This document shows, in pieces, positions 40,794 to 51,279 of a stretch of 51,279 bases of DNA. The notes below the pieces were generated by a model. That model had not been told where the DNA came from. It saw only the letters and a list, made by a program, of their open reading frames with translations, and did not search any database. The DNA is from Candidatus Dormiibacterota bacterium. Its GTDB lineage: Bacteria > Chloroflexota > Dormibacteria > Aeolococcales > Aeolococcaceae. Within the stretch, counting starts at the first letter, position 1, and every line of letters starts with the position of its first letter. The stretch is taken from positions 92,727 to 144,005 of the forward strand of contig PKXZ01000049.1 of NCBI GenBank assembly GCA_003132525.1, in the 5' to 3' direction. The position numbers and the translations under genes were made by a program.

Positions 40794-41759
40794 GTGATGG
40801 AGGAGCGGTTCGCGACCGTCCGGGGTCAGCCCCTTCGCTACCTCGTGTGCGGCAGCGGCAAACCGCTGGTCCTCTGTCACGGTTTCCTCAGCTCGGCCGA
40901 AGAGTTCGGCGGCCGGTTCAGTGAGCTCGGCGCCTATCGAACCCTGATCATTCCCGACCTGCCCGGCAACGGTGCCTCACCGCCCCTCCCCGGGAAGCAT
41001 TCGTCGGGGGCCATGGCCGACGTGGTGTTCGACCTGCTCGGCGAGCTGGAGATCGACCGATTCGACGTCGGCGGTCTGTGTCTTGGGGCAACCGTCGCCT
41101 GTGCCCTCGCCAAGCGGGCGGGGACCCGGGCAGAGCGGTTGGTGCTGCACACGCCGCTGCTGTCCTCCGATCTCATGCGACGGCGATACCGGGACCAGGT
41201 GCGTCTGCTCAGCCGCCGTCCCATGTGGGACGGGGTGGTGTGGTTGAGCCGCCAGCGCTGGGTGAGCGATCTCTACAAGCGCTTCGTCATCGTCGAGGGT
41301 GACGTCGACGACAGGACCGCGGACATCAACTACGAGAATCAGCGCCGGGCCGATCCGCGAGCCGCCCGTGAGTGGCTGAATGACTGCCTGCGCCGCAATG
41401 ACGTCGATGTGGTCGCAGCTCGGGCAGAGAGGACGCTGATCATCGTTGCGCGGCACGATCGGCTGGTGGACGTGGGAAAGCTCAAGGGACTGATCGCGAC
41501 ACTCCCGGGCCTCAACGTCTTCACCGACAGCGACCAGGGTCACGGCTGGAATGAGGCCGCGGTCCATCGCCAGCTCGAGGTGCTCAAGGCGTTCTTCGGC
41601 AACTGCCACGGGAACGGCCACGCCGCTTCCAACGGCGGTCAGATGGCCATGTCAGCATCGCTCGGAAACGGAAACGGGAACGGGAACGGCAACGGCAACG
41701 GCGCATACGGACGACCCGCGCTGCGCGACACGGTCACGATCCCGCTCTCGCACGCCTGA
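40794..41759 (+). CDS. Alpha/beta hydrolase with Cys in the nucleophile position and Asn-Gly tail
   Basis: 321-aa alpha/beta hydrolase fold protein. The fold is clear: KPLVLCHGFLSSAEEFGGRF, PDLPGNGASPPLPG, and the elbow GGLCLGA, where Cys stands in the place normally held by Ser. The Asp is in ARHDRLVD and the His in DQGHGWNE, so a Cys-Asp-His triad like dienelactone hydrolase is possible. After residue ~265 comes a low-complexity tail with six Asn-Gly repeats (GNGNGNGNGNGNG) and a basic C-terminus. No signal peptide. The start is GTG 40794 or ATG 40797. The end overlaps the convergent Ogt gene by 26 bases. Substrate unknown; inactivity is also possible. Confidence 0.88.
   Translation: MMEERFATVRGQPLRYLVCGSGKPLVLCHGFLSSAEEFGGRFSELGAYRTLIIPDLPGNGASPPLPGKHSSGAMADVVFDLLGELEIDRFDVGGLCLGATVACALAKRAGTRAERLVLHTPLLSSDLMRRRYRDQVRLLSRRPMWDGVVWLSRQRWVSDLYKRFVIVEGDVDDRTADINYENQRRADPRAAREWLNDCLRRNDVDVVAARAERTLIIVARHDRLVDVGKLKGLIATLPGLNVFTDSDQGHGWNEAAVHRQLEVLKAFFGNCHGNGHAASNGGQMAMSASLGNGNGNGNGNGNGAYGRPALRDTVTIPLSHA
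41664..41699 (+). repeat. Six GGNAAC hexanucleotide repeats encoding (Gly-Asn)6
   Basis: In-frame tandem hexamers whose Gly codons run GGA GGA GGG GGG GGC GGC, with AAC unchanged. The paired third bases suggest stepwise change of duplicated units. The tract lies in the C-terminal tail of the alpha/beta hydrolase and could vary in copy number without changing frame. Confidence 0.85.
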
Positions 41760-42264
41760 CCGGGCGGCGATCCGGGTCCGCGCCCTCGAGCTCGAGCAGG
41801 CTGCGCTTGCGCTCCAGCCCTCCGCCGTAGCCGGTCAGATCCCCGCCGGCGCCGATGAGGCGATGGCATGGGACGACGATCGAGATCGGATTCTGCCCAT
41901 TCGCCGCTCCGACGGCGCGAGCCGCGCGTGGCCGGCCGATCCGCGCGGCGAGCGAGGCATATGTCGACGTCTGCCCATACGGGATCTCCAGCAGCGCCGA
42001 CCACACGGCAACCTGAAAAGGCGTCCCGTCAAATCTGACCGGGAGCTCGAATCGGGTGCGAGCTCGCTGGAAGTACTCGGCGAGCTGTGTGGCCACGGCC
42101 GTCAGCACTGAGCTGAAGGCAGACGGTTGGTCGGTGATCCGTGGCGTGCGGGCGTGGCCATCGAAATGGAGACCGGTGAGCTCGTCACCCCTGGTGATCA
42201 CCAGGACCCGCCCGAGCGGGGTCGGCGCGTAGCCAAATAAAGGGGGAGGAGCCGCCTGAGGCAT
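41734..42264 (-). CDS. ogt: O6-alkylguanine-DNA alkyltransferase (methylated-DNA-protein-cysteine methyltransferase)
   Basis: 176-aa suicide DNA-repair enzyme that moves alkyl groups from O6-alkylguanine to its own Cys. The acceptor motif is IVVPCHRLIGAGGDLTGYGGG, preceded by the helix-turn-helix/arginine finger region PYGQTSTYASLAARIGRPRAARAVGAANGQNP. The start is the ATG at 42264 (MPQAAPPPLFGYAPTPLG); the track start adds 34 residues that overlap the divergent adaA gene. It is divergent from adaA-alkA with a shared inverted repeat, consistent with an adaptive response to alkylation in which the Ada functions are split between two proteins. Ends within the alpha/beta hydrolase 3' end. Confidence 0.93.
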   Translation of the reverse strand: MPQAAPPPLFGYAPTPLGRVLVITRGDELTGLHFDGHARTPRITDQPSAFSSVLTAVATQLAEYFQRARTRFELPVRFDGTPFQVAVWSALLEIPYGQTSTYASLAARIGRPRAARAVGAANGQNPISIVVPCHRLIGAGGDLTGYGGGLERKRSLLELEGADPDRRPVRRARAGS

Positions 42265-42298
42265 CTGCGAAGCTTGCGCCTTGGGCACATCACGAACT

Positions 42299-42339
42299 GG
42301 CCGGATTCGGACAGATCGTTCGCATGTCCGGATATGGCC
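42299..42339. promoter_or_regulatory. Inverted repeat between ogt and adaA-alkA
   Basis: Arms GGCCGGATTCGGACA and TGTCCGGATATGGCC (12 of 15 pairs match) with an 11-base spacer. It lies in the divergent region and covers the ATG proposed for adaA. A candidate operator for the methylated Ada-type regulator; this is inference. Confidence 0.5.
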
Positions 42340-43784
42340 GGTGGCGCCCGGCCCATCGCGATACAAGTAGACGCATGAGCGGTTTCTCGGCGGTGGTCAC
42401 GACCGGCATCTACTGCCGGCCTGGATGTTCGGCGCGTCCAAACGCGGCCAACGTCCGCCACTTCGACCTGGCCGCCGCCGCGGAGGCCGCCGGTTTCCGG
42501 GCGTGCCTGCGCTGCCGTCCGTACCGCGCTGACGCGCCGATCGGGACCGCCGGGTCGGAGGTCGTGTGCCGCGCCATCAGGCTCGTGATCGACGGCGGCA
42601 TTCGCAGCGACAGCGAGGCGGCAGTCGCCGCCCACCTCGGCCTGTCGGCACGCCACCTGCGCCGGCTCTTCCAGGAACAGGTCGGGGTCACGCCGCTGCA
42701 GCTCGCGCGCTCGAGCCGGGCTCATTTCGCGAGGCGCCTGCTCGACGACACCGACCTGTCCATCACGGAGATCGCCTTTGCTTCCGGCTTCGGGAGCCTG
42801 CGCCAGTTCAACCGGACGCTGAGCGAGATCTTCAGGGCGACCCCGCGAGAGCTTCGCGGCCGGCGTCGCATGGCCGACCGTCTGGTCGCCGACGGCGGGC
42901 TGCCGCTGCGCCTGAGCTTCGCGGGCCCGCTCGAGTGGGAGCCGATGCTCGGATACCTCGCGGCTCGCGCGATCACGGGGGTCGAGCGCGTCGCCGGAGG
43001 CGTGTATCGAAGAACTATCACGGTCGAGGGCGACCCCGGGGCGATCGAGGTCGGGCCGGGTGGCCCGGACCACCTCGTGCTCACCGCCCATCTGCCGCGC
43101 TGGGGCGGTCTGATCCACGTCGTCCACCAGGTTCGCCGCATCTTCAACCTGGACTTCGAGATCGATCGCGCCAACGATGTCCTGGGACGAGATCCGCTGC
43201 TCGGCGCCCGGGTGGCGTCGCTGCCCGGGTTGCGAGTGCCCGGGGCATGGGATCCCTTCGAGGTGGGCGTCCGGGCGATCATCGGTCAGCAGGTCACCGT
43301 CGCCGGAGCCGGCACGATCATCGCGCGGGTTGTCGCGCGCCATGGGATACAGGTGCCTGGACTGGGAGCGTTCGGGCTCACCCACACCTTCCCAACGGCC
43401 GAGGTGCTGGCCGATGCGGACCTCGACGGCAGCGGACTCACCGGTGCTCGGATCGCGGCGATCCACAACTTCTCCCGGGCGGTGGCGGAAGGAGATCTGC
43501 GGCTCGACCGGAGTCGGCCGCTCGACGAGCAGGTGGCGGCGCTGGTGGCGGTGCCCGGGCTTGGTCCGTGGATTGCCAACTACGTCGCCCTGCGCATGGG
43601 CGAGGCCGATGCGTTTCCGTCCACCGACCTCGGCCTGCGTCGCGGGCTGGAAGCGCTCGGCGGCCCTACCACGGCGGCCGGTGAGGTTGAGAAGATCGCC
43701 GAGCGATGGCGCCCGTGGCGGGCTCACGCCGCCATCCACCTCTGGTCGACCCCACGACGACAGCCCGGCGCGGCGGTCGCCTGA
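42324..43784 (+). CDS. AdaA-AlkA fusion: Ada-type regulator plus DNA-3-methyladenine glycosylase
   Basis: 486-aa fusion. The N-terminal Ada Zn domain (~10-75) has the four Cys in YCRPGC and CLRC, including the methylphosphotriester acceptor, then an AraC-type HTH (~85-165: AHLGLSARHLRRLFQEQVGVTPLQLARSSR, ITEIAFASGFGSLRQFNRTL). The C-terminal AlkA-like part (~190-480) has an HhH-GPD domain with VPGLGPWIANYVALRMG and the catalytic Asp in FPSTDLGLRR. It would act as alkylation sensor/activator and as a base-excision glycosylase for 3-methyladenine. The MGMT domain of E. coli Ada is absent and is supplied by the divergent ogt. The track start 42324 keeps the RDTSRR-type lead-in to the Ada fold; ATG 42375 would cut into it. 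Confidence 0.93.
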   Translation: MSGYGRWRPAHRDTSRRMSGFSAVVTTGIYCRPGCSARPNAANVRHFDLAAAAEAAGFRACLRCRPYRADAPIGTAGSEVVCRAIRLVIDGGIRSDSEAAVAAHLGLSARHLRRLFQEQVGVTPLQLARSSRAHFARRLLDDTDLSITEIAFASGFGSLRQFNRTLSEIFRATPRELRGRRRMADRLVADGGLPLRLSFAGPLEWEPMLGYLAARAITGVERVAGGVYRRTITVEGDPGAIEVGPGGPDHLVLTAHLPRWGGLIHVVHQVRRIFNLDFEIDRANDVLGRDPLLGARVASLPGLRVPGAWDPFEVGVRAIIGQQVTVAGAGTIIARVVARHGIQVPGLGAFGLTHTFPTAEVLADADLDGSGLTGARIAAIHNFSRAVAEGDLRLDRSRPLDEQVAALVAVPGLGPWIANYVALRMGEADAFPSTDLGLRRGLEALGGPTTAAGEVEKIAERWRPWRAHAAIHLWSTPRRQPGAAVA

Positions 43785-46974: not shown

Positions 46975-47029
46975 ACCACTGAGTGGGAGGACGCCTGATG
47001 CGTCCGCCAACACCACGGAGCAAGTGAAG

Positions 47030-47740
47030 ATGCCCAAACAGCACGGCAAGAAGTACCGCGAAGCCGCGAGCGCGATCGAAGCGGGGAAGTTCTATCCACC
47101 GTCCGAGGCGGTGAGCCTGGTCCGCCAGACTGCGGTCACCGCGTTCGATTCGTCGATCGAGGCTCACGTCCGCCTCGGTATCGATCCACGCCACGCAGAT
47201 CAGGTGGTGCGCAGCACCGTGACGCTTCCCCACGGCACCGGGAAGACCCGGCGGATCGCGGTGTTCGCGACCGGCGAGAAGCTCCGCGAGGCCATCGAGG
47301 CCGGGGCGGAGGTCGTCGGCGGCGAGGACCTGGTCAAGAAGGTGCAGGACGGACAGATCGACTTCGACGTCGCGCTGGCCACTCCCGAGGTCATGGGCAT
47401 GGTTGGCCGCCTCGGCAAGATCCTCGGCCCTCGCGGTCTGATGCCCAACCCCAAGGCGGGGACGGTGACCTTCGATATCGCCAAGGCGATCCAGGATGTT
47501 CAGGGCGGCAGGGTCGAGTTCCGCAATGACAGGACTGGCATCATTCACACCGCAATTGGTAAAGCTTCGTTCGACGACGACAAATTGCGCGACAATTTCG
47601 CCGCTTTGATGGATGCAATTGTTCGGGCCAAGCCCTCCGGCGCGAAGGGCACCTACGTAAAGACGGTCACGATCGCCGCGACCATGGGACCAGGGATACC
47701 GGTCGACCCGGTACAGGCAGCACGCTTGACGGTGGGCTGA
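47030..47740 (+). CDS. rplA: 50S ribosomal protein L1
   Basis: 236-aa L1, which binds 23S rRNA at the L1 stalk and often represses its own operon through an mRNA mimic. Signature parts: ASAIEAGKFYPPSEAVSLVRQ, TVTLPHGTGKTRRIAVFATGEK, MGMVGRLGKILGPRGLMPNPKAGTVT and the C-terminal KGTYVKTVTIAATMGPGIPVD. The ATG at 47030, 9 bases after GGAG, is preferred to the track GTG at 47024. The next gene, 13 bases on, is cpaE-like rather than the usual rplJ. Confidence 0.98.
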   Translation: MPKQHGKKYREAASAIEAGKFYPPSEAVSLVRQTAVTAFDSSIEAHVRLGIDPRHADQVVRSTVTLPHGTGKTRRIAVFATGEKLREAIEAGAEVVGGEDLVKKVQDGQIDFDVALATPEVMGMVGRLGKILGPRGLMPNPKAGTVTFDIAKAIQDVQGGRVEFRNDRTGIIHTAIGKASFDDDKLRDNFAALMDAIVRAKPSGAKGTYVKTVTIAATMGPGIPVDPVQAARLTVG

Positions 47741-47753
47741 GGTCCCGATCGAT

Positions 47754-48986
47754 TTGATCAGGCTCCTTATCGTCGACGACATCGCGAGCACGCGGGATAA
47801 CCTGCGCAAACTCCTCGGGTTCGAAGAGGACATCGAGGTCATCGGCACCGCGGGCGACGGCAAGCAGGGACTCGAGGAAGCGCACCGCCTGCTCCCCGAC
47901 ATCGTGCTGACCGACGTGAACATGCCGATCATGGACGGCATCCAGCTCACCGAGCGGCTCGCTCAGGAGCTGCCGGCCTCGCCGGTGATCATCATGTCGG
48001 TGCAGGGCGAGCGGGACTACCTCCGCCGCGCCATGCAGGCGGGAGCGCGCGAGTACCTGATCAAGCCGTTCAGCCACGACGAGCTCGTCGCGGCGATCCG
48101 GCGCGTGCATCAGCTCGAGGAGAAGAAGGGAACCTTCGCGCGCGCCGCTACCCCGGACGGCTCCGGCGCCCCGCGTGCCGCAGCGCTCGGCGAGGTGATC
48201 GTGCTCTTCTCCGGCAAGGGCGGGGTGGGGAAGACGATGCTCGCAACCAACCTCTCGGTGGCGCTTGCCGTCGAGACGGAGTCACGCGTGGCGCTCGTCG
48301 ATCTCGATCTCCAGTTCGGGGACATCGGGGTCATGCTCAACCTCGATCACAGCCGGAGCATCACCGATGTCGTCGAGTCGGAGACCCTCGAGCCCGAGAT
48401 GCTCAACGAGATCATGGCCCAGGGACCGAACGGCGTCCGGGTCCTGCTCGCTCCCATCAGCCCGGAGCTGGCCGACCTCATCACCGGCGACCACGTTCGC
48501 ATGGTGATGGCGGAGCTGCGCAAGACCTTCGACTACGTGGTCATCGACACGTCGTCGCACCTGGCCGACTTCAACCTCGAGGTCATCGAGTCCGCGCAGC
48601 ACATCCTCGTGGTCACCGCGCTCACCATCCCCGCGATCAAGGACGCGAAACTGGCCCTGAAGGTCCTCGAGTCCCTCACCGTCGACCCGGCCTCCGTCCT
48701 GCTGGTCGTCGATCGGAGCGACTCGCATTCCGACTTTAACAAGGACTCGATCGAGCAGAACCTGCGCCACAGCGTCGGCGCCCAGATCCCGTACGACCCG
48801 CGCGTTGTCGGCGACTCCATCAACCGGGGCATCCCGTTCGTCACCTCGAGCCCCGAGGCGGAGATCAGCCGCTCGATCCGCGAACTCGCCGGCGCCCTCG
48901 TCCCAGGCGGCGGCCAGCCGGTCGGTGCCGGCGCCGCCGCGGGCAAGGCCGACGACAAGCGCAAACGCCGCATCTTCGGACGCTGA
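47754..48986 (+). CDS. CpaE-like receiver plus ParA/MinD-type ATPase (copy 1)
   Basis: 410-aa fusion of an N-terminal response-regulator receiver (~1-120) and a ParA/MinD-family ATPase (~145-385), as in CpaE/TadZ proteins that localise Tad/Flp pilus machinery. The receiver has the acidic pair VDD, phosphoacceptor Asp54 in VLTDVNMP and Lys104 in LIKPF, so it looks phosphorylatable. The ATPase has a complete deviant Walker A, FSGKGGVGKT (~153-161), LVDLDLQFGD and VVIDTSS. The start is TTG at 47754, 13 bases after rplA, so it may be read through from the ribosomal operon. The C-terminus is basic (KADDKRKRRIFGR). Two paralogues follow on the other strand. Confidence 0.92.
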   Translation: MIRLLIVDDIASTRDNLRKLLGFEEDIEVIGTAGDGKQGLEEAHRLLPDIVLTDVNMPIMDGIQLTERLAQELPASPVIIMSVQGERDYLRRAMQAGAREYLIKPFSHDELVAAIRRVHQLEEKKGTFARAATPDGSGAPRAAALGEVIVLFSGKGGVGKTMLATNLSVALAVETESRVALVDLDLQFGDIGVMLNLDHSRSITDVVESETLEPEMLNEIMAQGPNGVRVLLAPISPELADLITGDHVRMVMAELRKTFDYVVIDTSSHLADFNLEVIESAQHILVVTALTIPAIKDAKLALKVLESLTVDPASVLLVVDRSDSHSDFNKDSIEQNLRHSVGAQIPYDPRVVGDSINRGIPFVTSSPEAEISRSIRELAGALVPGGGQPVGAGAAAGKADDKRKRRIFGR

Positions 48987-49043
48987 GCGCCGCCGGGTTC
49001 GGACGCTGAGCGCCGCCGGCTTCGGACGCTAAGCGACGCACAC
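48975..49043 (+). repeat. 23-bp tandem repeat at the end of cpaE copy 1
   Basis: Three units of TTCGGACGCTGAGCGCCGCC-type sequence (48975, 48998, 49021); the first two differ only in the last base and the third is diverged after ACGCTAAGCG. The first unit encodes the terminal Phe-Gly-Arg and the stop, so the others are copies of the gene end lying in the intergenic region. Confidence 0.85.
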
Positions 49044-49111
49044 GGACGGAGAAGACCCCGGCTCCGGCTTCAAACCGGACTATTCAGCCTCCGCCGGGGT
49101 CTCCTCCGTCC
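49044..49111. terminator. Long hairpin between convergent cpaE genes
   Basis: Arms GGACGGAG-AA-GACCCCGGC (49044-49062) and GCCGGGGTC-TC-CTCCGTCC (49093-49111): 17 paired bases with a 2-base internal mismatch, and a smaller TCCGG/CCGGA hairpin in the loop. No strong T-run follows, so it may be a bidirectional or Rho-aided terminator. Confidence 0.6.
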
Positions 49112-49210
49112 ACGGTCGGTGGCGAATCCACCCTCAGCCCGAGTCTCCTCCGTCCGTCCGTAGGTGCGTATTAGTGCGGTATGAAGCCGGAGCCGGGGTC
49201 TCTTTAGTCC
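49054..49210. repeat. 18-bp perfect inverted repeat competing with the hairpin
   Basis: GACCCCGGCTCCGGCTTC (49054-49071) is exactly complementary in reverse to GAAGCCGGAGCCGGGGTC (49183-49200), which is followed by TCTTTAG. The left arm is shared with the 49044-49111 hairpin, so the two folds exclude each other. The 13 bases GTCTCCTCCGTCC also occur twice (49099 and 49143). Confidence 0.7.
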
Positions 49211-50457
49211 CTGCCGAATGCGAGCCGGCGCCGGCCGCGCTTCTTGCCGGGTTGCTCGGCAGCCGACTCCGCTCCCGCATCGCCGGTGAGGGCGGCGGCG
49301 AGGCGCTCGAAAGCGGCAGTGGCGGGGGAGGAGTGGCCGCCGATCACGACGGGGACACCTGAGCTGACCGATCCACCGATGGCCTGGGCGTCGTGGGGGA
49401 TCTCGGCCGCGACCGGGTGACGGAGGAAGTCTTCGATTCGGGCTTTGTCCATGCCTCCGGCGAGTGGCGCGTCGCGGTGGTTTGCGACCACGACGATTCG
49501 TTCCGGATCGACCTGGAGGACACCGATCACCGACATGATCAGGCGGGTGTTCTTCACCGAGGTGACGCTGAAGTCGGTGACGAGCACGATGTGGTCGGAG
49601 TTCTCGAGCGCCTCGAGGGTGATCTCGGAGAGCTGCGCCGTGGTGTCCGCAACGACTGTCTCGAAGGTCGAGCGCAGCTCGGCCACCAGTGAGCGCAGAT
49701 GGGCGGTGGTCACGTAGTCGGCAAGCTCGGGGCTCGGGGGTGCCGCGAGGACGGTCAGCCCCTGCGGGCCGAGGGAGAGCGCCTGCTGGATCACGTGACG
49801 ATCGGCCATGCCCGCGTCGCTGGCGGCGAACTCCGCGATCGATCCGTCCGGGGTCATCGCGAGCAACGCGGCAATGTCGCCGAACTGGAGCGAGAGATCC
49901 ACGAGCACAACGCTCCCCGGGTGTGGCCGGTTGAGCACCAGCGCGAGATTGGTGGCGATGATCGACTTGCCGACACCGCCCTTGCCCGAGACGATCGTGA
50001 TCATGCGGCCGTCGCGCCGACGGCCTCCGTCTGCGGCGGCGGGGCTTCCGGCTGCGGGTTGGTGAACCGCCTGGGCGGCGCGCTTGCGGGCCTGGAAGGC
50101 GTGGACCCGGTGAATCGCGGCAACCAGGTCGTCCCCGGCGAAGGGCTTCTGGAGCACCTCGCGGGCGCCGGCGAGCATCGCCCTCCGGAAGAGCTCGCTG
50201 CCGCTCTCCATCGACATCAGGATCACGCCGGCCTGGGGGGCATACTCCGCGAGCATCTCGGTCGTCTGGACACCATCGAGGCCGGTCAGCCCGGCATCGA
50301 GCACCGCGATGTCCGGCACCAGGTGGAGCGCTTCCTGGAGTGCCTGCTCGCCGTCAATTGCGGTGCCGCAAACCGTGATGTCCTCTTCGGCGGCGAGGCG
50401 CCGGACGAGGTTGGCGCGGATGCGCTCGCTGCCGTCGGCAACCAGGACGCGGATCAC
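49204..50457 (-). CDS. CpaE-like receiver plus ParA/MinD-type ATPase (copy 2)
   Basis: 417-aa paralogue of copy 1 with the same layout. The receiver keeps Asp54 (IAVLDAGLTGLDG) and Lys104 (LQKPF), but the acidic pair is reduced to VADGS. A low-complexity Ala/Gly/Arg linker (~125-150) leads to the ATPase, with Walker A VSGKGGVGKS (~157-165), VVLVDLSLQFGD and VVADTTAQL. It ends in a basic KKRGRRRLAFGRD. It lies 9 bases after copy 3 on the same strand, so the two form an operon whose promoter is off the window; it is convergent with copy 1. Probable role in placing or assembling Tad/Flp pili. Confidence 0.92.
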   Translation of the reverse strand: MIRVLVADGSERIRANLVRRLAAEEDITVCGTAIDGEQALQEALHLVPDIAVLDAGLTGLDGVQTTEMLAEYAPQAGVILMSMESGSELFRRAMLAGAREVLQKPFAGDDLVAAIHRVHAFQARKRAAQAVHQPAAGSPAAADGGRRRDGRMITIVSGKGGVGKSIIATNLALVLNRPHPGSVVLVDLSLQFGDIAALLAMTPDGSIAEFAASDAGMADRHVIQQALSLGPQGLTVLAAPPSPELADYVTTAHLRSLVAELRSTFETVVADTTAQLSEITLEALENSDHIVLVTDFSVTSVKNTRLIMSVIGVLQVDPERIVVVANHRDAPLAGGMDKARIEDFLRHPVAAEIPHDAQAIGGSVSSGVPVVIGGHSSPATAAFERLAAALTGDAGAESAAEQPGKKRGRRRLAFGRD

Positions 50458-50466
50458 GGCGCCACC

Positions 50467-51279
50467 TTACCTCCGCCCCAGGCTGAATCGGCGCCGGTAC
50501 ACCGGGGGCTCGGGCGCCGGTATCTCGACGGTGCCCACATCGACGCTCGCAGGCGCGGCGATGAGCTGGGCAAGCGAAGTCAGCCGGCGAGCCAGCTCCG
50601 AGCGGGGCTGGGCAAGGACGATCGGCATTCCGGAGTCGAGTGATGGATCGACACGGGGGTCGTAGGGGAGGTCGATGAGGACGCCCCGGCCAAGGATCTG
50701 CTCGATGTCCTCGCGGCGATAGTTGGTACGCGGACGCGTGTGGTTCAGGACGATATCGACACGATCCAGGTCGACACCCAGTGCCTCGAGCATGAGCAGC
50801 GTTGCCTTGGTGCCGCGCACGGCGCTGAGGTTGTAGCTGGTGACCAGGAGCAGTCGATCGGCGAGCTCGAACGCCTCCAGGACGCGCTCATCGACGCTGG
50901 ACGGCGTGTCCACCACGACGAACTCATGCGCCCGGGCAGTCGTCCGGATGATCGAGCGCAGGTGGGCGGCGCCGATCGCCTCGGCCAGCTCGGGGCTCGA
51001 CGGGGCACGGAGCACCCGCACCTCTCCAGAACCGGTGGCGAGGACGTCGTCGAGCAGGCTGGCGTCGATGTCCTCGCCGTGCGCTGCCAGATCGGCAATG
51101 GTGAGGGGGTGATGCTCAACATGGAGCATGCTCGCCGCATCACCGAACTGGAGATCGATGTCCAGCAGCGCTGCGCGGCCGTCGGCACCATGGGCGAGGA
51201 TCACCGCGAGGTTGGTGGCCACCATCGACGCGCCGGTGCCTCCTTTGCCGGAGAAGGCGACCACGATGGTCGCGCGACC
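50467..51279 (-). CDS. CpaE-like ATPase with altered P-loop (copy 3, cut by window edge)
   Basis: The track gives a start at 51264, but the frame stays open to the window edge and reads GRATIVVAFSGKGGTGAS, so the gene continues upstream, probably with a receiver domain. The ATPase core is clear: LLDIDLQFGDAASML, FVVVDTPSSVDERVLEAF, LLLVTSYNLSAVRGTKATLLMLEALG and the C-terminal basic YRRRFSLGRR. The Walker A reads KGGTGAS, so the P-loop lysine before Ser is replaced by Ala, while the signature Lys remains. This suggests weak or no ATP hydrolysis, as reported for some TadZ/CpaE proteins. It is 9 bases upstream of copy 2. Confidence 0.9.
   Translation of the reverse strand, partial: GRATIVVAFSGKGGTGASMVATNLAVILAHGADGRAALLDIDLQFGDAASMLHVEHHPLTIADLAAHGEDIDASLLDDVLATGSGEVRVLRAPSSPELAEAIGAAHLRSIIRTTARAHEFVVVDTPSSVDERVLEAFELADRLLLVTSYNLSAVRGTKATLLMLEALGVDLDRVDIVLNHTRPRTNYRREDIEQILGRGVLIDLPYDPRVDPSLDSGMPIVLAQPRSELARRLTSLAQLIAAPASVDVGTVEIPAPEPPVYRRRFSLGRR

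Follow-up and report, generated by a model that had tools for sequence, protein, structure and literature searches.

The window analysed here, a 51,279-nt stretch of contig PKXZ01000049.1 from the soil organism Candidatus Dormiibacterota bacterium, ends in three genes for receiver-ATPases of the CpaE/TadZ type, hereafter named copies 1, 2 and 3. They are paralogous members of a single Tad (type IVc, Flp) pilus locus, which combines three CpaE-like with two CpaF-like genes. A previous reading made from the DNA letters alone (hereafter the sequence-only reading) had recognized three receiver-ATPases of CpaE type at 47754-51279, and the open reading frames (ORFs), the Pfam matches and the Tad context bear it out. 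Plain coordinates are those of the window, and its continuation in the same genome was read as G000:C95, locus L013. The genes and the motif under study are the following.

47754-48986, plus strand: copy 1, CpaE/TadZ-type, receiver and ParA/MinD ATPase, 410 amino acids (ORF and Pfam).
49204-50457, minus strand: copy 2, CpaE/TadZ-type, receiver and ATPase, 417 amino acids (ORF and Pfam).
50467-51279, minus strand: copy 3, ATPase half only, ParA/MinD-type, 270 amino acids visible, cut by the window end (ORF).
51226-51246, minus strand: deviant Walker A motif of copy 3, KGGTGAS, with its Ala codon (GCG) at 51229-51231.

On the strand opposite to copy 1, and behind a pilin gene, copies 2 and 3 lie next to each other; copy 3 comes first in the direction of transcription, with 9 bases between it and copy 2. 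Between the pilin gene and copy 3 there is a terminator-like hairpin, the count of such terminators being not above that in shuffled sequence. Copy 1 matches Response_reg (2e-29) as well as ParA/AAA_31/CbiA, and in copy 2 a receiver is likewise joined to a ParA/MinD-type ATPase. The Walker A stretches read SGKGGVGKTM in copy 1, SGKGGVGKSI in copy 2 and SGKGGTGASM in copy 3. The sequence-only reading was therefore right that copies 1 and 2 have full deviant Walker A motifs (KGGVGKT and KGGVGKS) and that copy 3 has Ala at the position of the P-loop Lys. KGG with the signature Lys is present in all three copies, and the P-loop Lys is absent from copy 3 only.

The receiver of copy 3 lies beyond the window. 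It extends in G000:C95 to about 144460, with a GTG start near L013:6461, and was found by profile against receiver structures, its score being below Pfam detection. An NN at L013:6006-6007 (G000:C95, at the window end) puts this receiver and the ATPase in different frames. In all sister species with a complete copy 3 gene, a single open frame runs across the same point, and we therefore attribute the frame break to an assembly ambiguity. A programmed frameshift or a split gene was rejected for these two reasons.

The architecture of these proteins is that of Caulobacter crescentus CpaE. It also resembles TadZ of E. rectale (structure 3fkq) and of A. actinomycetemcomitans, in which an atypical receiver is combined with a MinD/ParA-type ATPase carrying an altered deviant Walker A. 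An AlphaFold model of the full-length copy 3 from a sister species, with a predicted local distance difference test score (pLDDT) of 84, has a receiver-like fold without helix 4 followed by a MinD-like ATPase. In Foldseek, the model matches 3fkq over both domains (E 5e-12, 410 columns), with a high root-mean-square deviation (21), which suggests that the modelled domain arrangement differs from that of 3fkq. The closest solved structure to copy 3, by sequence and by fold, is 3ea0, a ParA-family ATPase of Chlorobium tepidum that is itself Lys-less (KGGDGGS) and that, unlike copy 3, was solved as an ATPase domain only. All three copies end in a similar basic-aromatic tail, such as RRRFSLGR or KRRIFGR, which would be consistent with a common membrane or partner contact. 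The top NCBIfam models for the three proteins are MinD models, with scores of 56-105 bits against cut-offs of 201-213, that is, about half or less. A MinD identity was rejected because these scores are far under the cut-offs.

The rest of the Tad machinery is close by. Upstream of copy 3, the contig of the window also holds genes for a Flp pilin (PF04964), TadB and TadC (two T2SSF matches) and a SAF-domain CpaB-like protein. CpaF is not on this contig, as C95 ends before it. The sister genomes G002 and G005 have the locus in one piece, with two CpaF motors, and comparison with these genomes places contig C20 of the own genome next to C95. C20 carries one complete CpaF and the end of the other. 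The contig end thus explains the missing motor, and absence of CpaF from the locus was rejected. CpaF, TadB and TadC, the neighbours by which the sequence-only reading proposed to judge a Tad assignment, are accordingly all accounted for. A further T2SSE match, lying at the end of contig C86, was not syntenic with the CpaE locus. The motors are the following.

L098:6086-7702 (plus strand) and L098:8600-9766 (minus strand), on G002:C13: two CpaF-type motors, converging, in the same Tad locus.
L102:11283-12569 and L102:12991-13395, on own contig C20: CpaF-type motors.

The two CpaF are about 58% identical to each other, each has a complete Walker A (GGTGSGKT and GGTGTGKT), and the two-CpaF locus was seen in two genera. 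In known Tad systems, a single bifunctional CpaF is reported to do both extension and retraction (PMC12019362). Hence, where Caulobacter has a single CpaE and a single bifunctional CpaF, the present locus has three CpaE and two CpaF.

On the tree, the CpaE proteins form three clades: copy 1, copy 2 (support 99/98) and copy 3 (90/84). The three clades occur together in all seven species of the own genus (g1) and, where contigs allow, in g6, g10, g12, g13 and g14. Sister families have a single CpaE, which groups with copy 1. All three copies are under purifying selection, with ratios of nonsynonymous to synonymous substitution rates (dN/dS) of 0.035 for copy 1, 0.048 for copy 2 and 0.155 for copy 3; the last value indicates a gene that evolves faster and is nevertheless constrained, and no pseudogene. 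More than one receiver-bearing CpaE was found in none of 86 comparison loci (0 of 66 named non-triplet loci and 0 of 20 Chloroflexota loci). In addition, the literature, which has one TadZ per locus against three paralogues here, one of them with an intact receiver, yielded no description of several CpaE in one Tad locus, its open-access coverage being incomplete. The unusual arrangement announced by the sequence-only reading is therefore real, although in a different sense: three CpaE whose receivers are graded, conserved as a set and accompanied by two CpaF, stand out here, and not the P-loop residue.

The receivers differ from copy to copy in a regular manner. That of copy 1 has the Asp-Asp pair, Asp, Ser and Lys in every genus and is intact. 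In that of copy 2, the phospho-acceptor Asp is preserved, as is the Lys, and in the own genome Asp-Gly replaces Asp-Asp, as the sequence-only reading had noted in describing a reduced acidic pocket. At the position of the second acidic residue, copy 2 has Glu in most genera, against Gly or Ala in the own genus, and the reduction of the pocket is therefore largely a genus-level step. In copy 3 of the own genome, His replaces the phospho-acceptor Asp and, in the alignment, Glu replaces the conserved Lys. Both residues are missing from copy 3 in every genus read, whatever the state of its P-loop. By its aligned residues, copy 3 thus has a pseudo-receiver throughout the family, and what stays constant for each copy is its receiver and not its P-loop. 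Candidates for signalling with the CpaE receivers are two nearby genes: the Tad locus itself contains a stand-alone receiver (L013:8529-8915, plus strand), and farther along a histidine kinase (L098:17809-19191, minus strand) adjoins Soj-like ParA genes.

The P-loop Lys behaves quite differently. Within g1, the position in copy 3 is Ala (GCG) in the own genome and Thr (ACG or ACC) in all six sister species, so that Lys is found in none of the seven. Elsewhere, copy 3 has Thr in G018 and G020, and Lys in g2, g10, seven g12 species, two g14 species and G011 (one of two in g6). The Ala, which had been put forward as a possibly conserved, special feature, was consequently rejected as such. As to the presence of Lys in copy 3 orthologues, which the sequence-only reading had said would refute its proposal, the outcome is divided: Lys occurs in the genera just named and is lacking throughout g1 and in G018 and G020. 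Copy 1 has also lost the residue, in G018, G012 and both g14 species; in genera g13 and g14 it is this copy from which the Lys has gone. With the P-loop columns excluded, a tree of 98 ATPase domains shows at least nine changes between Lys and non-Lys.

Loss of this Lys extends well beyond the three-copy loci. Outside the class, each of 20 Tad loci from Chloroflexota has a single CpaE directly beside CpaF, TadB and TadC, and in 19 of them it is without Lys (Arg in 14, Thr in 3, Cys in 2). The same holds for 9 of 60 named Tad-linked CpaE from mixed phyla (Ala in 6, Arg in 3), a fraction that is not a census, these proteins having been retrieved by similarity to the Dormibacterota set, and for four of the five annotated CpaE genes from Tad loci on plasmids (two Ala, two Thr). 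Liberibacter crescens CpaE, whose motif is published as KGGVGSS (PMC8513845), likewise has a deviant Walker A without Lys; unlike copy 3, it is present as a single copy and has Ser rather than Ala or Thr. Given these recurrent losses in single CpaE, in 3ea0 and in the L. crescens protein, a P-loop without Lys is ordinary variation in the CpaE family. The suggestion of the sequence-only reading that it may mark a special subunit is therefore not supported, all the less so since the copy 3 orthologues themselves vary. In contrast to the P-loop Lys, the signature Lys, the Walker A Ser and the Walker B Asp of copy 3 are kept in every aligned orthologue, and the switch Asp is also retained. TadZ has been described as binding ATP with low ATPase activity and an atypical Walker A (PMC6668835, PMC13170226), and Walker A changes are reported to keep polar localization intact (PMC13189830). 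The P-loop Lys is thus expendable, having been lost repeatedly where other residues of the nucleotide site stayed, a pattern that fits ATP as a dimerization ligand and not as fuel.

We consider it likely that these genes are three CpaE/TadZ paralogues of one Tad locus that divide the labour through their receivers, and in which loss of the P-loop Lys is a recurrent event. If they resemble TadZ and Caulobacter CpaE, the ATPase domains would use ATP mainly as dimerization glue, and CpaE dimers would surround the CpaF motor at the membrane so as to position or regulate it. The in situ model for Caulobacter has six CpaE dimers arranged about the CpaF hexamer, the dimers probably touching one another via their receiver (REC) domains (PMC13170226). 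Loss of the Lys in copy 3 would be one of many in a family with low, dispensable ATP turnover; it probably lowers hydrolysis further and would leave the scaffold standing. Copy 1 is probably the phosphorylatable, signal-bearing member, copy 2 would be partly competent, and copy 3 may act as a scaffold that is blind to phosphorylation and binds ATP in order to dimerize. Together, the three paralogues would supply the CpaE layer around CpaF, either as a mixed ring or as separate homodimers, perhaps on different CpaF. Control of the Tad motor through the receiver of CpaE/TadZ is not settled in the literature found, and paralogues with intact, partial and blind receivers beside two CpaF offer a natural comparison of the effect of phosphorylation.

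Several points weigh against this interpretation. No CpaE/TadZ equivalog of NCBIfam is passed by these proteins, and the family assignment therefore rests on architecture, context and fold. The copy 3 clade, where long branches come together, has moderate support. The comparison genomes are mostly incomplete metagenome-assembled genomes. Finally, as copy 3 has the Lys in several genera, its ATPase state varies, and a constant biochemical function based on the P-loop becomes less credible. A more specific scheme, in which a mixed assembly of all three paralogues surrounds the two CpaF and two-component signalling, by changing which copies make up the ring or what state it is in, determines whether the pilus extends or retracts, strikes us as rather improbable.

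The alternative that survives best, which we regard as possible though doubtful, is that of obligate hetero-oligomers, an extension of what the sequence-only reading proposed. In sandwich dimers or a mixed ring around CpaF, copy 3 would join copy 1 or copy 2, lending its signature Lys in trans with no turnover at its own site, and the state of the resulting one-site dimer would be set by the receivers of its partners. The retention of three paralogues alongside one TadB/TadC platform favors it, as do the invariant signature Lys, Walker A Ser and Walker B Asp of copy 3 and the dimers placed around CpaF in Caulobacter. Genus g14 adds a suggestive case, its copy 1 lacking the P-loop Lys and its copy 2 the signature Lys (QGGSGKS; L065:10125-11369, L067:7558-8805), so that copies 1 and 2 could form a complete site only in a mixed dimer. 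However, the signature Lys has also been lost in single-copy loci (Gln in L147, Thr in L157 and L158), and we no longer take these complementary losses as proof of heterodimers. CpaE lacking one Lys or the other are common in loci where a single copy makes heterodimers impossible; P-loops without Lys being usual there, the residue does not imply hetero-oligomers. Moreover, the seven species of g12 have Lys in every copy examined, which leaves no dedicated non-hydrolyzing subunit in that genus.

Separate homodimers with separate jobs, for instance one CpaE for each CpaF motor (extension and retraction) and one for positioning, without any mixed complexes, are in our view unlikely. Such a division would agree with the two diverged CpaF that share a locus in two genera, each with its Walker A intact; in addition, copy 1, directly behind rplA, is transcribed in the opposite direction to copies 2 and 3, suggesting a different control. 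Yet two CpaF do not match three CpaE in number, and two CpaF-like genes stand with a single CpaE in 2 of the 20 other Chloroflexota loci.

It is very improbable that copy 3 is a decaying duplicate in which the missing Lys, the blind receiver and the faster evolution are all signs of function being lost. Its dN/dS is indeed the highest of the three and its receiver escapes Pfam, but the ratio stays far under 1, an uninterrupted ATPase frame is found in all seven g1 species and in every other sampled genus that has a copy 3 orthologue, the residues of the nucleotide site besides Lys are invariant, and the gene predates the genus, so that decay would long be finished. That the three are MinD-like division or ParA-like partition regulators merely standing beside a Tad locus, as the best NCBIfam scores and the Soj-like ParA genes of the wider locus might suggest, has hardly any likelihood in view of those low scores, the receiver-ATPase architecture, the match to 3fkq and the position of CpaE beside CpaF, TadB and TadC in the 20 Chloroflexota loci.

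Two further observations concern the surroundings of the three genes. Directly upstream of copy 1, after secE-nusG-rplK, lies the following gene.

47024-47740, plus strand: rplA-like gene, its name inferred from the translation.

Copy 1 begins 13 bases after it (window 47740-47754), behind the secE-nusG-rplK-rplA run, and may be co-transcribed with the ribosomal protein genes. This rplA-copy 1 neighbourhood is also kept in another genus (G026). Farther upstream, at 41734-43784, an Ogt-like gene (minus strand) faces an Ada/AlkA-like fusion (plus strand), by the look of their translations a methylated-DNA repair pair.

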